A DNA stretch of 64,000 nt from positions 496,001 through 560,000 of the forward strand of contig NZ_FXLP01000005.1 in assembly GCF_900176605.1 (NCBI RefSeq). The letters are read 5' to 3'. The translations under genes and the position numbers were made by a program. Under the pieces are notes generated by a model. It ran no database searches and was not told where the DNA came from. It was given only the letters and a program-made list of their open reading frames with translations. How positions within the stretch are numbered: the first letter of the stretch is position 1; each line of letters starts with the position of its first letter. Positions 50,090 to 56,374 of this stretch are shown here, piece by piece. The stretch comes from Peptoniphilus vaginalis (lineage in GTDB: Bacteria; Bacillota; Clostridia; Tissierellales; Peptoniphilaceae).

Positions 50090-51100
50090 CTAATTCTTAT
50101 TACAATATTTAACAATTAAAGTTTCCATAATTAATTTTTCATCAATGGAGGAAGTTTTAAAAAGCTCGTCAGTTTTTATTAATTCCTCATAAAAATTAAT
50201 TAAAAATTCCTTAGAAAAGTTTCTCTCAAAGTCTCTTATTTTTTTTAACTCGAAATTTTTTACTTCCATCTTATTCATTATGTCATTTTGACTTATGTTT
50301 TTTGTAGATAAAATCTTATATGATAATAAGTTTTTAACCTGTCTAATTACCATGGTAAAAATCTTAAGAGAAGGCTCTCCAAGCTTGTAGAGATTGTGAA
50401 GTTCCTTTAAAGATTCTTCTCTACTTCTCCCCATCATGGCATCTAAAAACTTAAAAATATTTGTATCAATATTTTCTGTGATTGTGCTAGATATATCTTT
50501 TCTTGAAATTTTTTTATTTTTAGCGTGAGAAGCAATCTTATCCATTTCTGTCTTGAGGTCCAGAAGGCTTACATCTTCATTTTTTGAATTATAACCACTC
50601 TCTCCTATAAATAGAGAAACTTCACTTTGACTAATTTCCTTTCCCTTCCTAATGAAGTAGCCTTTAACAAAGTTGTTTAGGTCCACAGGGTTTAACTTTG
50701 CAAAGTCCATGTCCCTATCTTTCTTCTTAAAAGCCTTGTAAAATTTTGTCGTCTTTTTGATGTTTGCAGTATCCCAAAAAATTAAAATTACAAAGTCAGA
50801 TAAGTTGTCCAAAAAATCATAAAAGGAATCCTTTAAGTCATTTTCGCTTAAAAAGTCTACTAGGTCACGAACAAGGACAATTTTTTTGTCATTCATCACT
50901 GGATAGGTCTCGCAAGCTGAGATAATATCCTCCGGTTTGGCTTCGCTTCCCTTTAACTTAGTATAGTTAAAGACCTCAGTACCCTTTACATATTTATTTA
51001 TTAAATAGCCCACTGCATTTTCCATTAAATATTTTTCTTGTCCAAAAAATAAGTAGGCTCCTGAGTGGTCGCTATCTCTGTAGATTTTCTTGTAGTTCAT
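50090..51100 (-). CDS. holA: DNA polymerase III subunit delta
   Basis: 336-aa clamp-loader subunit that opens the sliding clamp. AAA+-fold without a working ATP site. N-terminal GAYLFFGQEKYLMENAVGYLI is typical. The middle lid region and C-terminal collar domain (about 210-336) with REESLKELHNLYKLGEPSLKIFTMVIRQ follow. The ATG at 51100 follows GAGG and overlaps the comEC 3' end by 29 bases. comEC-holA-rpsT order is conserved in Firmicutes. Confidence 0.93.
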   Translation of the reverse strand: MNYKKIYRDSDHSGAYLFFGQEKYLMENAVGYLINKYVKGTEVFNYTKLKGSEAKPEDIISACETYPVMNDKKIVLVRDLVDFLSENDLKDSFYDFLDNLSDFVILIFWDTANIKKTTKFYKAFKKKDRDMDFAKLNPVDLNNFVKGYFIRKGKEISQSEVSLFIGESGYNSKNEDVSLLDLKTEMDKIASHAKNKKISRKDISSTITENIDTNIFKFLDAMMGRSREESLKELHNLYKLGEPSLKIFTMVIRQVKNLLSYKILSTKNISQNDIMNKMEVKNFELKKIRDFERNFSKEFLINFYEELIKTDELFKTSSIDEKLIMETLIVKYCNKN

Positions 51101-53345
51101 AATTTTTCCTCGCCACAATATATAATAAGCTAGTGTTTAAAATAATCAAAATTAAATCAAGCTTATAATCTTGCTCCTTATTGTTCACTTCTATCCTTAG
51201 TTGATTTCCTAAAATTCTAAAATCAACTTCCCCATCTCTTGAAGTAACATAGTATATGATACCATGTTTTTCTAAATTCTCCAGACTCTCTTTATGGGGA
51301 TGACCATAAGAATTTTCATAGCCTGCAGAAATCACTGCAAGTTTTGGTTTTGTCTTTTCTAAAAATTCATCACAAGTTGAAGTCCTAGATCCATGGTGAG
51401 CAACTTTTAACAAGTCTATCTTTGAATTAATTTCTCTCTCAATCTCTGCTGATATATCTCCTGTGAAAAGAGTCTTAAAACCCTTGTGGTCTAAGAGTAA
51501 GACCATGGACTTGTCGTTTTCTTCTTCCTTCTTTTCATTATCTAGCAAGACTTCCATGCTTGTGTCCTTAAAAAGTTTTACCTTATCTCCCCTAGAAAGT
51601 TTTATAATTTTTGAATATTTTTCTCCTTCTTCTAAGATACTTGGGTCTTCTGGAAGATGATTTATAAAAATATTTTTTACCTTGTAGTTTTCTAATATTT
51701 TATTTAAGTTGCCAAAGTGATCCTCATCAAAGTGAGAAATAAAAATCCCATCTATTGTAGAAACACCTCTTAGCTTTAGACTTGGAAATAAATATTTTTC
51801 TGCAATCTTATTTTCAAACCTAGCCCCGCCAGTATCAATGAGATAATTCCTTCCCTTATAAGAAATCAAAGCACAGTCCCCCTGGTCTATATAAAGTTGA
51901 CTTATCTCAAAGGTAATAAGGTCTCTGTATATGCCATAGCCCATTAGGATAAATGCAAGAGCCCCATAGATTTCTATTATTCTTAAGTTAAGTTTAATGA
52001 TTTCATCTAATTTACTCCTGTTTAGAATTACAAGAAGTAAGAGGTAGTAGATGAAAATATACTCGAACTTAAAGGCCTTTATTGTTAAAAATATTGACCC
52101 CTTGGAAAGCAGGAGACTTTCTAGTCCATAAGTAGCATTCATTAGTAAATTTAAAAATCTTCCAAGTAAGCCTGGAAATATTCCCAAGCCCATAAGAAAA
52201 CCTAAGGAGATGATAAGAGAATAAATCGGAACTATTATTAAGTTTGCAAGAAAAACTAAAATGGAAAAACCTGAAAAATAATAATTTATTAATGGGAAAA
52301 CTGAAATTATTACTGACAAGGTCCCAACAAACGACTTGCTAATTAGGCTCCTACTCGAAACTCTTTCAATGAGGTTTGGATAGACAAAAATCAAACCAAA
52401 AATTGCCCCGTATGACAACAATAGAGAGATGGAATAAATTGCCATGGGATTTATTAAAAGAATTATTGATAGACTTAAGAAGAAAATATCCTTATTATCA
52501 ATGTCCTCTTCCAAATAAGTGTTGCCCTTGTAAAGGATGTAAAACAAGTAGGCACGTAGAGCTGAAATTCGAAAGCCAATTGCCATTATGTAAAAGAATA
52601 AAATAATCACAAGGGCCAAGTCCGTAAATTTTTTATTCTTGATCAACTTTTTAATTATAAATTCTAAAAAGAGAGCTAGAACTCCAATGTGAAGTCCAGA
52701 CACAGCTAAGATATGACTCATACCAAGAGAGTCAAACCTATCTCTATCCAAAGAATCAACTAAGGACTTGTCAGCTAAGATTAAAGACCCAAGCAAACCA
52801 GCGTTTCTTTCATCTAAATATTTATTAAAAAAATATTTTGCCCTATCGAGAAAAAGATTTGAAAATTTGTAGAGCCCCCTTGGGTCAGAAATTTTTTCAT
52901 ATCTACTAATCTTTCCAAGGAGATAAATTCCCTGAGACTTATTATTCTTCTCGTAGTCAAAGGTCCCCTTGTTCATTGCAGGAAGAGGCGGATAAAATTT
53001 CCCCTGAATTTTATACCTTCCTCCTCTTTCCAACTTTTCATAAACTAAGACCTTAGTCTTAAATTTTTTTCTGTTGATAGTCTCTGTCTTAATAATAGAT
53101 TTATTTTCATTAGATAAGATAACCTTACCCATGACTTGTCCATCAAAGGTCTTTAAGCTGTAATCCCTGAAGTTAAAATTTATAAAAACAAAGAGGATTA
53201 CAAGAGGTAAGTATAAAAATTTATTTCTATCTTTCAAGGATAAAATATATGCACTGGTAATAAGTAAAATTATTCCCACAAGAAGATAGGATTTTATGTA
53301 AATTGAAAGTATAATTCCAAAGATTACTCCTGCGAATAAGTACAT
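51072..53345 (-). CDS. comEC: DNA internalization channel ComEC/Rec2
   Basis: 757-aa membrane protein for transport of single-stranded DNA during natural transformation. An N-terminal OB-like DUF4131 part has early hydrophobic segments. The central ComEC/Rec2 channel domain (about 190-470) contains MSHILAVSGLHIGVL. A C-terminal metallo-beta-lactamase-like nuclease domain (about 495-757) carries FISHFDEDHFGNL and later VAHHGSRTS. Complete, no frameshift. The ATG at 53345 is five bases after GAGGGG. No comEA or comEB lies next to it. Confidence 0.93.
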   Translation of the reverse strand: MYLFAGVIFGIILSIYIKSYLLVGIILLITSAYILSLKDRNKFLYLPLVILFVFINFNFRDYSLKTFDGQVMGKVILSNENKSIIKTETINRKKFKTKVLVYEKLERGGRYKIQGKFYPPLPAMNKGTFDYEKNNKSQGIYLLGKISRYEKISDPRGLYKFSNLFLDRAKYFFNKYLDERNAGLLGSLILADKSLVDSLDRDRFDSLGMSHILAVSGLHIGVLALFLEFIIKKLIKNKKFTDLALVIILFFYIMAIGFRISALRAYLFYILYKGNTYLEEDIDNKDIFFLSLSIILLINPMAIYSISLLLSYGAIFGLIFVYPNLIERVSSRSLISKSFVGTLSVIISVFPLINYYFSGFSILVFLANLIIVPIYSLIISLGFLMGLGIFPGLLGRFLNLLMNATYGLESLLLSKGSIFLTIKAFKFEYIFIYYLLLLVILNRSKLDEIIKLNLRIIEIYGALAFILMGYGIYRDLITFEISQLYIDQGDCALISYKGRNYLIDTGGARFENKIAEKYLFPSLKLRGVSTIDGIFISHFDEDHFGNLNKILENYKVKNIFINHLPEDPSILEEGEKYSKIIKLSRGDKVKLFKDTSMEVLLDNEKKEEENDKSMVLLLDHKGFKTLFTGDISAEIEREINSKIDLLKVAHHGSRTSTCDEFLEKTKPKLAVISAGYENSYGHPHKESLENLEKHGIIYYVTSRDGEVDFRILGNQLRIEVNNKEQDYKLDLILIILNTSLLYIVARKNYELQENLQR

Positions 53346-53420
53346 AGGCACCCCTCTTCATTATATATCTTTTTAAGGTCATGGACCATGAAATATGTTA
53401 ATATATTAGAGGAGGTAATT

Positions 53421-55106
53421 ATGAATTTAGTTTACAAAAACCCTTACAAGACAAAATACAAATTAGAAATAATTGATAAAATAAATCGCAACGGAATTAC
53501 TTATGGGAAGCTTGCAAATCCTCCCTACTTCTTAGGTAGTGAAAGAGTTTCAGCTGACCAAATTATAATAAATGGAGAAGAGCCTAAGTTTTTATCGGGC
53601 AACAAGTCCTATTTTAAAATTGATGAAGATGCAAAAAATGTAGAAATTGAAATTGGATGGAAGAATAGACTCCTTCTTATGCAAGAAAATCTTGGCAACG
53701 CCCTTGTAAGACATTTCTTAACAGCCAACACAAACATAGAAATTATTGGCTACAAGGTTGAGAATTCTTCGTCCTATATTGATGTGTCTGCAAAAGATTT
53801 TAAGTTTATGACTGCAAAAAATATTGAGTCTCTTGCCAACTACGCAGTCTTCTCCAACCTCGCCATCGAAAGTTTTGACGACCACATTTCTATCGAAAGA
53901 CTTGCAGACATCCCTTATGAAGGTCCAGCCCTATCTAGAACTGGTGAAATTGGAATGATTTTTATTTCTTCTGTTGAGAAGCTAAATTCACTAATTAGGC
54001 TTACAATCACATCAGGAGAAAATGCCTACAAGTTAGCCCGCAACTCTTTAAATATCTTAGACAATATGAAGATGTATCTAAATAGCGATAGCATTAACTC
54101 AGTCTTTTCTGATGTTAAAAAGTTAAGAGCTAATATGAGTTCATCAAAAAATCCTCATAAGCTTGTTGAAGATGATGAGGTTAAAAGATTTAATAAAGAT
54201 TTTGAAAAAGATAAGTCTGTTAATTCTAATAAATCAACAGAAACTATGGACGATAAGAATATTGATATGGATAAAAAACTTTTAGATGACAGTGAATGTA
54301 CTGTAAATAAAAAATCAGATAAAATTTTAGAAATTAAAAAAGAAGCCGCAAAAGAATTAGATATTAAAACCAAAGAAGAGAAAGAAAAGTATGATGCAGA
54401 CTTCTTCCACAAAAAGTATAAGCTTGAATCCTTCAAGGACTTAAATAAATTTACAAGTCCTAACAAAGCCAAGGGGTCAATTGAAACTAATAAAAAAGAA
54501 ATTAGTAATGAAGAAGAAAGAAATGCTAAGGTTGAAAATGAAGAAAAATACGATGCAAAATTCTTCCACGAAAAATACAAACTTGAATCCTTCAAAGACT
54601 TAAATAAATTTACAAGTCCTAATAAAGGTGACAACACAGAAAAAGTTACATTGAAGAAGGATAAGTTAGAAAATAATAATTCAAACGAAAAAGATGCCTC
54701 TTCTATAAAACTTAGCAACAAAGAAGATGATGAAAGAACTTCCCTCTTCTATCAAGCAGTAGAAAGCTTTAAAAACTTTTCCACTGAATTTTCTGGTCTA
54801 AATTATATATACAAGGTCCTTCAAGATATAAACTTAAAAGAACTTCGTGAAATTTCAAATTACATTTTAAAAGAAGATAACTTTATACAAATTTATGGCC
54901 TTAAAAATGGATCAAAATCAAAAATTATAATCCTAAGATCACAAAATCTAAACTTTGATCTTAAAAAGATTTTTGAAAAATTAAAAGACCACTTCAGCTT
55001 CACTGGAACAGGCAACATGTACACCCTAGACATTCAATGTAAAGAGGATGACTTAACAAGAATTATGGAATCCTTCCTAATCGAAATAAGAAGAAAAGCA
55101 AAATAA
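53421..55106 (+). CDS. Degenerate AlaX-L-like protein lacking the editing zinc site, with internal repeats
   Basis: 561 aa. Residues 1-225 align by eye with the alanyl-tRNA editing (AlaX/AlaRS) domain: YKNPYKTKYKLEIIDK start, GWKNRLLLMQENLGNAL, SSSYIDV, SRTGEIG and TSGENAY. The catalytic HxxxH becomes N90 and A94, and the CxxxH of CGGTH becomes Y166 and A170, so all four zinc ligands are gone. Residues 240-440 are a charged linker with two 26-residue copies (324-349, 377-402). Residues 445-561 resemble the DHHA1 end of AlaX-L (SKIIILRS, FTGTGNMY). Probably a non-catalytic RNA-binding or scaffold descendant. The ATG is five bases after GGAGG. Divergent from comEC. Confidence 0.7.
   Translation: MNLVYKNPYKTKYKLEIIDKINRNGITYGKLANPPYFLGSERVSADQIIINGEEPKFLSGNKSYFKIDEDAKNVEIEIGWKNRLLLMQENLGNALVRHFLTANTNIEIIGYKVENSSSYIDVSAKDFKFMTAKNIESLANYAVFSNLAIESFDDHISIERLADIPYEGPALSRTGEIGMIFISSVEKLNSLIRLTITSGENAYKLARNSLNILDNMKMYLNSDSINSVFSDVKKLRANMSSSKNPHKLVEDDEVKRFNKDFEKDKSVNSNKSTETMDDKNIDMDKKLLDDSECTVNKKSDKILEIKKEAAKELDIKTKEEKEKYDADFFHKKYKLESFKDLNKFTSPNKAKGSIETNKKEISNEEERNAKVENEEKYDAKFFHEKYKLESFKDLNKFTSPNKGDNTEKVTLKKDKLENNNSNEKDASSIKLSNKEDDERTSLFYQAVESFKNFSTEFSGLNYIYKVLQDINLKELREISNYILKEDNFIQIYGLKNGSKSKIIILRSQNLNFDLKKIFEKLKDHFSFTGTGNMYTLDIQCKEDDLTRIMESFLIEIRRKAK
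54390..54626 (+). repeat. Two-copy tandem repeat inside the AlaX-like gene
   Basis: Copies at about 54390-54467 and 54549-54626 (period 159 bp) encode YDA-x-FFH-x-KYKLESFKDLNKF-TSPNK, identical at 24 of 26 residues. High identity within a low-complexity linker implies recent duplication or selection for a two-site binding motif. Confidence 0.85.
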
Positions 55107-55123
55107 ATTTTATATTATATTGT

Positions 55124-55147
55124 ATGCCAACTAAAATTAGTTGGCAT
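55124..55147 (+). terminator. Terminator of the AlaX-like gene
   Basis: ATGCCAACTA and TAGTTGGCAT arms with a 4-nt loop are followed by TTTTTT, 17 bp after the stop codon. Confidence 0.88.
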
Positions 55148-55290: not shown

Positions 55291-55845
55291 TTAATAATAT
55301 TTTTCATTGATATAGTGATCTATTATGGAAGTCTTAATTCTATCATCAAAAATATTTTCTTCTTGAAGGACCTTCAAAAGCCAGTCGGCCTTTGAATGAA
55401 AGATTGCCTCTTTCTTGTCCTCTAGGACTATTTCATAAAGCTCATTTCTCAATGCCTTTGATTGGCACTTTATATAATAAGCTTTCATATTTCTAAAGTC
55501 TTGAATCTTTAAAATATTTAAGACAGATTTGTCCTTAAGCTCGTAGTATTTATTTGTTAAATTCAGATAATAGTTGTAGTACTTTGAATGTTTTTTTGTA
55601 TTTCTTACGTCCTTTGAAAGAGATCTATAATACTTTGCCATCACATTGTAGTATTGGTAGTTGTACATTCCCTTTTCATAGGAGTCAACCTTTATATAAG
55701 GTCTAGCATTCCTCATTGCAAAATAATCAAAATTTTTTTGCAAAAACTCCCTCTTGGTTAGATCGCCATTTGTGTATTGGCTTATGAGAAAGGACCTGTG
55801 TTCAAAAAAATCTTCAAATACTCCTCTTTTTTTATTTAAAACCAC
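55291..55845 (-). CDS. Hypothetical protein rich in Tyr, Lys and Asn
   Basis: 184-aa soluble protein, family not recognised. Mostly helical character with many Tyr residues (YYNVMAKYYRSL, SKYYNYYLNLTNKYYELKD). No signal peptide, membrane segment or catalytic motif is visible. The start is GTG at 55845, with GGTGA upstream, three bases after the stop of a 29-residue membrane peptide. Last gene of the minus-strand run from about 61237; the repeat cluster at 55147-55282 lies downstream and may end transcription. Confidence 0.6.
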   Translation of the reverse strand: MVLNKKRGVFEDFFEHRSFLISQYTNGDLTKREFLQKNFDYFAMRNARPYIKVDSYEKGMYNYQYYNVMAKYYRSLSKDVRNTKKHSKYYNYYLNLTNKYYELKDKSVLNILKIQDFRNMKAYYIKCQSKALRNELYEIVLEDKKEAIFHSKADWLLKVLQEENIFDDRIKTSIIDHYINEKYY

Positions 55846-55948: not shown

Positions 55949-56374
55949 TTATTTACCAGTAACTTCTAGACATTTATCCTTTAATGATTCAGGCATGTCT
56001 TCCTTTAAATAATCAACGTTAATAAAAATTTCTTTGTTTTCAGCATCAGGAATTTTAGCAATCTTGTTGTATAGGTGTTCTAGGTCCTCAACGTTAAGTT
56101 TAAGAACTTTATAAATTCCATCAACATAAATCTTGTGTAGGTCATAATCCATTGCAAGAAGTCCACAGATAAAACCGTAGAAACTATCAATTGAGTTTAA
56201 TCTGTATTCAGTAGCATTAATAAGTCTTACATTATAATCAAGACTAAAAATGTGATCGTCATCAACTTCTACAAAAGCAATATTTCCATCGCCTTGCTTC
56301 ATATCTTCATTAGCATTGTCGATTAACCATCTTGTTTTTCCAGAGCCTTTGCTTCCTAAAATATACTTTATCAT
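55949..56374 (-). CDS. Small P-loop ATP-binding protein
   Basis: 141-aa protein with an N-terminal Walker A, GSKGSGKT (7-14), and a Walker-B-like HKIYVDGIY (80-88). It lacks an obvious second half of an AAA or kinase domain. Conserved-looking VDDDHIFSLDYNVRLINATEY follows the P-loop. Nucleotide binding is well supported; the reaction is unknown. Its ATG overlaps the radical SAM gene stop (ATGA), so the two are translationally coupled. Confidence 0.75.
   Translation of the reverse strand: MIKYILGSKGSGKTRWLIDNANEDMKQGDGNIAFVEVDDDHIFSLDYNVRLINATEYRLNSIDSFYGFICGLLAMDYDLHKIYVDGIYKVLKLNVEDLEHLYNKIAKIPDAENKEIFINVDYLKEDMPESLKDKCLEVTGK

Follow-up and report, generated by a model that had tools for sequence, protein, structure and literature searches.

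Editing domains are usually studied as hydrolases, and the locus described here raises the question of what keeps such a domain in a genome after its metal site has been lost. The gene lies in the window, that is, the whole 64,000-nt stretch of Peptoniphilus vaginalis DNA that was analysed (genome of 1.88 Mb in 5 contigs). It encodes a 561-aa orthologue of the alanyl-tRNA editing protein AlaX-L without metal ligands (53421..55106, + strand), assigned by its open frame, profile-profile homology and dN/dS. The start at 53421 is located downstream of a ribosome binding site AGGAGGT (53410..53416, +), which was read in the sequence and is like the site before the aligned start of near relatives, and it agrees with the starts of relatives; an alternative ATG upstream, at 53388, has no AGGAGGT-type site. 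The gene is followed by a terminator-like hairpin with a T tail (55124..55147, +; 2 such hairpins found versus 0.9 expected from shuffles). A preliminary description of this DNA had listed a good ribosome binding site, a terminator and an intact 1.7-kb frame, and AGGAGGT, hairpin and 561 open codons were all confirmed. The closest named relative found is the protein of P. genitalis, with 83% identity over the aligned protein.

The fold is barely recognisable from the single sequence of the window protein. As a single query it matched no Pfam family at E values up to 10. NCBIfam AlaXM was matched with an E value of 8.1e-6, but with 25.7 bits versus a cut-off of 300, and the protein alone matched PDB entry 3kew with an E value of 8.7e-4. 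With profiles the homology is firm. An alignment of 21 metal-less relatives from the same bacterial family was compared with an alignment of 13 intact proteins from other families of the order, which resulted in a probability of 100 and an E value of 4.8e-48 for a match spanning both domains. The last 130 residues alone, compared profile to profile (hhalign, 18 versus 13 sequences), gave 99.6% and an E value of 5.7e-24, and it is by this comparison with the intact C-domains that the C-terminal C-Ala/DHHA1-like domain characteristic of the AlaX-L subtype was found in the window protein. Homology to tRNA_SAD-type editing domains was likewise found between profiles, and the metal-less family profile retrieved 3kew (5.7e-20), AlaRS 3wqy (2.4e-8) and 2e1b (3e-5) from the PDB. 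Entry 3kew ('DHHA1 domain protein', 241 aa) is the closest solved relative of the N-terminal domain and matches this domain only; a C-domain profile gave only chance-like matches in the PDB (best E value 0.017). Pfam detected tRNA_SAD in 13/13 and DHHA1 in 12/13 proteins of the intact set, compared to tRNA_SAD in 7/21 metal-less proteins (E up to 1, best 0.015) and DHHA1 in 4/18 metal-less C-domains (E up to 1, best 0.1). An N-terminal editing-domain frame and a DHHA1-like end had both been proposed from the single sequence, and the profile searches show both homologies. Intact AlaX-L, which consists of an editing domain and C-Ala/DHHA1 and occurs in other families of the order, is thus homologous to the window protein from end to end; it has about 400 aa, and the window protein has about that length plus a linker.

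Three parts can be delimited on the + strand. The dead editing domain comprises residues 1-238 (53421..54134), as defined by alignment to intact relatives and to the genome's own AlaRS, and its end was set at the point where relatives with only the N-terminal domain stop. A charged linker of 191 aa follows (residues 239-429; 54135..54707), recognised by composition and dN/dS, and the DHHA1/C-Ala-like domain forms the C-terminus (residues 430-561; 54708..55103), as supported by hhalign against the C-domains of intact AlaX-L and by conservation.

AlaXp-S, -M and -L are described as deacylases in a passage of PMC11295145. In order to locate the zinc ligands, the ligand columns were fixed on intact AlaX-L and on the AlaRS of the same genome, where they read H, H, C, H. 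The window protein has none of the HxxxH/CxxxH ligands of an AlaX deacylase: the former HxxxH (53688..53702, +) reads N90 (53688-53690) and A94 (53700-53702), and the former CxxxH (53916..53930, +) reads Y166 (53916-53918) and A170 (53928-53930). These are the same four residues that the preliminary description had named as replacing HxxxH and the Cys and His of CGGTH. Its suggestion to check the ligands in related cocci was followed: the orthologues also lack them, with all four absent in 14/14 genomes of the genus Peptoniphilus.

Besides AlaRS, the ligand table contains 80 homologues, of which 64 belong to the family and 16 were taken from other families. Among the 64 family proteins, 51 are metal-less (a lower bound for the genomes read), 6 are intact and 7 belong to a separate class. 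In other families all 16 tabulated proteins and 20 further loci of the order are intact (36/36); outside the family 91 genomes match the profile, at least a few perhaps via AlaRS only, and 36 of these 91 were read. The idea that all four ligands were lost at once had to be rejected, because some family rows keep single ligands: G024 keeps the first His and the Cys, and the last His is kept by G030, G152 and G153 and likewise by G016 and G117. Judged from these alignment columns, the loss is piecemeal. Only one ligand, the second His of HxxxH, is absent from every one of the 51 metal-less rows; the 10 further ORFs described below lack it as well. The G024 protein (locus L029), with both second-position His residues replaced by Leu, is a possible intermediate. 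The separate class (G133, G135, G087, G125, G132, G019 and G027; loci L110, L111 and L115-L119) has frames of 374-411 aa, reads Q, H, C, H with Gln at the first His of HxxxH, and forms its own branch (100/99).

A search of the window genome for a second AlaX, with intact ligands, was negative. Besides AlaRS, the only tRNA_SAD protein detected in this genome is a 639-aa ORF, presumably ThrRS, and each of the 14 Peptoniphilus genomes gave two tRNA_SAD matches.

A tree of 81 rows, calculated without the ligand columns, placed 50 of the 51 metal-less proteins on one branch (support 97/90) that includes a core of 39 metal-less proteins (100/98); the ligands were lost, as is expected for a pseudoenzyme, in a clade of orthologues. 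The remaining protein, G113, is a long metal-less branch lying outside the main one, and an AU test did not reject its placement inside (p 0.37), which is no proof of membership. In the tree, the six intact proteins found in this family cluster with their intact counterparts from other families. A single origin of the metal-less branch is likely from this topology, with the qualification that fast-evolving rows may attract each other.

The position of the gene supports orthology to AlaX-L. In the window its divergent neighbour is comEC (51072..53351, - strand; NCBIfam ComEC_Rec2 E 3e-82, Pfam Competence), and holA is the next gene past comEC (50090..51118, -; NCBIfam holA E 1.9e-71). These two genes were named by NCBIfam and Pfam in the window and by BLAST clusters in relatives. 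The AlaX-L-like gene is divergent to comEC in 28 of 32 neighbourhoods, 6 with intact AlaX-L and 22 with metal-less proteins, and holA is beside comEC in 26 of those 28. Intact AlaX-L in these 6 neighbourhoods, seen in several neighbouring families, occupies the same comEC-holA locus as the window gene. The four exceptions are G045 and G047 (intact, located elsewhere), G101 and G009; in the latter the gene caller had dropped the gene, whose frame overlaps comEC. At 15 further metal-less loci comEC was detected nearby in 14, the exception being G113, and in the stretches read at seven loci of the Q, H, C, H class it was found in 0/7. A gene of about 90 aa, probably rpsT, is often present past holA. 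No co-directional partner gene stands out across the 32 neighbourhoods.

Not all members of the family have the complete protein. The stretch upstream of comEC was read in 20 family genomes that had yielded no AlaX-like protein in an earlier search (one of them AlaRS only). In ten of the 20, an ORF of 203-248 codons with a match to the dead editing domain lies divergent to comEC, and in none of these ten ORFs are H, H, C, H present at the ligand columns. No AlaX-like gene was found at the comEC locus of the other ten; in 3 of them the gene pair there looks like a ThrE-type exporter. In the 21-row metal-less alignment three rows (G001, G007 and G021) consist of the N-terminal domain only. Interrupted copies were seen in G013, G030, G146 and G148. 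In the first of these, P. timonensis (loci L009 / L164), the frame is broken in the linker into open stretches of 356 and 201 codons; this genome is 87% complete with 5% contamination, and the break is possibly a sequencing error. Lineages that have kept only the dead editing domain are evidence against a function residing in the C-domain alone, and this retention suits docking or scaffolding.

The preliminary description had proposed dN/dS as a check, and the values (Nei-Gojobori) reveal strong purifying selection in near relatives after the ligands were lost, as expected for a pseudoenzyme. In seven close Peptoniphilus pairs (G000-G003, G000-G012, G000-G002, G002-G013, G006-G009, G004-G008 and G006-G010) dN/dS of the N-domain was 0.05-0.12; in the six close pairs of full-length proteins the C-domain gave 0.06-0.10, and the linker, at 0.26-1.06, is relaxed. 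Both domains are similar in this respect to comEC (0.11, 0.13 and 0.17) and holA (0.05, 0.06 and 0.13) in three Peptoniphilus pairs. Wider pairs, with high or saturated dS, gave 0.10 (G011-G006), 0.18 for the N-domain and 0.27 for the C-domain (G000-G005), and 0.33 (G001-G007). The N-terminal part of four metal-less pairs from other genera gave 0.05-0.18, and one pair of intact proteins gave 0.09, a second one being saturated. Among the short forms, values were 0.05 for G068-G077, 0.06 for G068-G073 and 0.26 for G118-G119; short G021 versus full-length G101 gave 0.35.

The two domains have changed places with regard to conservation. In separate alignments of 18 intact proteins, the N-domain was more alike than the C-domain in 153/153 pairs (means 0.47 and 0.26), while in 32 proteins of the metal-less core the C-domain was more alike in 429/496 pairs (means 0.35 for N and 0.41 for C). 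A joint alignment restricted to pairs with 20-70% N identity led to the same picture, with N above C in 150/150 intact pairs and C above N in 422/464 core pairs; the pairs share history and are not independent tests. At the level of these identities, constraint has moved from the editing domain to the C-Ala/DHHA1-like domain in the metal-less core. Compared to intact AlaX-L, the window lineage is without the four ligands and the YPxxxGGQP loop and has its constraint shifted to the C-domain. The core has also gained residues that are fixed at 100% (P169, D126, Y464, G493 and F552) or nearly so (K233 97%, R506 94%, N215 92% and L171 92%). Invariant in 18 C-domains are, in window numbering, I463, Y464, I491, G493, R506, S507, L514, K515, G531, N532 and F552. 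The N-domain is not basic: its mean net charge is -2.8 in the core and -0.5 in intact proteins, compared to +1.6 in the genus.

The linker consists of K (22%), E (13%), D (10%), N (10%) and S (9%) to a large part, and includes two copies of a repeat on the + strand: the 94-nt reference copy (54375..54468) and a second copy with 86% identity (54534..54627), spaced 159 nt start to start. A charged linker of about 200 residues with a duplicated motif had been described before, and this held up; the picture of an insertion with a duplicated motif needs correction in that most intact relatives, of about 400 aa, have no long linker and that the motif is present in 9/15 rows. The motif, KYDAKFFHEKYKLESFKDLNK or close variants, occurs in 0 to 3 copies per row in these 15 rows: three each in P. 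genitalis and P. harei, two in the window protein and in P. phoceensis, and one in P. faecalis, P. senegalensis, P. grossensis, P. gorbachii and the N-terminal piece of P. timonensis. Since six rows lack it, the motif is not needed for the basic function. Elsewhere in the window genome it was not found; it is present only in the AlaX-L-like gene. An origin of the motif by copying from the C-domain was rejected (local score 23 versus a shuffled mean of 26).

Taken together, purifying selection, the common ligand loss and both domain homologies strongly support the view that the window gene is a retained pseudoenzyme, a conclusion in which we have high confidence. A retained non-editing function had already been favoured in the preliminary description, and neither of the two outcomes it named as contradicting this view, absence of an editing fold by profile and orthologues with intact ligands in related cocci, was found. 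Without the metal, the protein should be unable to hydrolyse Ser- or Gly-tRNA(Ala). Our full reading, to which we assign a probability of roughly 0.4, is that it represents a positional orthologue of AlaX-L that would have stopped editing early in the family and been kept for another job, RNA binding included.

What this job may be is suggested by C-Ala of AlaRS. According to passages of PMC3158927, C-Ala binds the tRNA corner about equally with or without the editing domain, and it is described as carrying the editing domain to the tRNA. C-Ala is the homologue of the more conserved part of the window protein, recognisable by profile via intact AlaX-L. In AlaRS it is tied to an active editing domain, and tRNA binding by the C-domain of the window protein is putative. 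If the carrier is conserved and the cargo is dead, RNA binding would be the simplest surviving activity, and the full-length protein may be a non-catalytic RNA-binding protein. Homology and conservation suggest tRNA-elbow binding of the C-Ala kind. An L-shaped RNA would be held by the C-terminal domain, in the simplest case at the elbow of a tRNA, which is what C-Ala binds. The editing domain, now empty, would offer a surface on which the acceptor end or a partner docks. The long flexible linker with its repeated motif might recruit something more in part of Peptoniphilus, and what persists in lineages with the dead domain alone would be the part that docks. In the most specific form of this reading, which we put forward only tentatively, a redundant proofreading enzyme would have become a free-standing protein that binds tRNA or another L-shaped RNA without catalysis, with the C-Ala-like module as the working part and the dead domain and repeat linker as the docking device, and might serve as a tRNA regulator or chaperone.

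A domain of comparable state is known from a eukaryote. In the AlaX-like domain (AXD) of Plasmodium falciparum TrpRS all four zinc ligands are replaced, as stated in passages of PMC3680381; TrpRS without AXD showed no aminoacylation, AXD alone did not shift tRNA, and the authors proposed that the domain assists tRNA binding and aminoacylation (PMC3680381). The likeness consists in an AlaX domain with four replaced zinc ligands and a proposed non-editing role. By that account AXD is AlaX-S-like, fused to TrpRS and without a C-Ala-like domain (PMC3680381), whereas the window protein is free-standing and found across a bacterial family. The failure of AXD alone to shift tRNA (PMC3680381) counts against our full reading, as do the non-basic N-domain and the weaker constraint seen in wider pairs (G001-G007, G021-G101 and G118-G119). 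A free-standing metal-less bacterial AlaX was not found in a literature search of open-licence papers by title and start of abstract. A ligand-less AlaX domain is known from Plasmodium TrpRS, and a free-standing one was not found in the open-licence literature searched.

The same observations can be read without any RNA. The protein could be a scaffold or partner subunit, with the dead domain as the binding site for some protein, be it AlaRS, another synthetase or a different one, and the C-domain as a dimer or protein interface. The retention of N-only forms in several lineages, with the low dN/dS of G068-G073 and G068-G077, fits this, as does a conserved motif in 0-3 copies within otherwise relaxed linker sequence, and according to passages of PMC3680381 part of the role of the Plasmodium TrpRS domain is believed to be structural. 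Gene order names no partner, however, as the gene stands alone with oppositely oriented neighbours in most loci, and a scaffold by itself leaves unexplained why the C-domain, the homologue of an RNA-binding module, became the more conserved part. We regard this explanation as possible but doubtful.

Changed chemistry, with a pocket that is either catalytic in the absence of the zinc site or a sensor for a small ligand, would account for N90 and Y166, which do not vary among 15 rows comprising the window protein and 14 named relatives from Peptoniphilus (A94 at least 90%), and for newly fixed core residues near the old site in sequence (P169, L171 and R173). It is unlikely, since the same four positions vary freely in other genera (NISL, IASV, VAFI, YILV) and the conserved YPxxxGGQP loop is gone. 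We consider it very improbable that the gene is redundant and slowly decaying, with AlaRS doing the editing and the protein doing nothing. Trans-editing is indeed backed by AlaRS, the C-domain was lost in several lineages, 10/20 genomes read have no AlaX-like gene at the locus, and interrupted copies exist; but dN/dS of the domains is on a par with comEC and holA, and the metal-less proteins, most of them with uninterrupted frames, make up one old branch on which residues have been newly fixed. These three lines of evidence disfavour simple decay.

If our full reading of the window gene as an AlaX-L orthologue kept for another job is true, the half of a proofreading enzyme that binds RNA or protein can be under selection in its own right, and the metal-less branch would be a natural experiment on a C-Ala-type domain without editing. 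The name 'alanyl-tRNA editing protein' would then be wrong for the metal-less genes. In the Peptoniphilus genomes searched, AlaRS would be the sole tRNA_SAD-type protein clearing mischarged tRNA(Ala); deacylases such as DTD were outside this search.

The region just 3' of the gene shows some further features. A hairpin-like repeat at positions 55195-55275 matches 27 sites of the genome (its own and both orientations counted), and several pairs of matches are about 1.5 kb apart, like two insertion-sequence ends. The convergent downstream gene (55291-55845) encodes a DUF6648 protein with dN/dS of 0.07, 0.04 and 0.01 in three Peptoniphilus pairs. It is followed by a 141-aa ORF (55949-56374) that gave no NCBIfam or Pfam match at E 1e-4 and whose relatives occupy the corresponding position in 6 other neighbourhoods.
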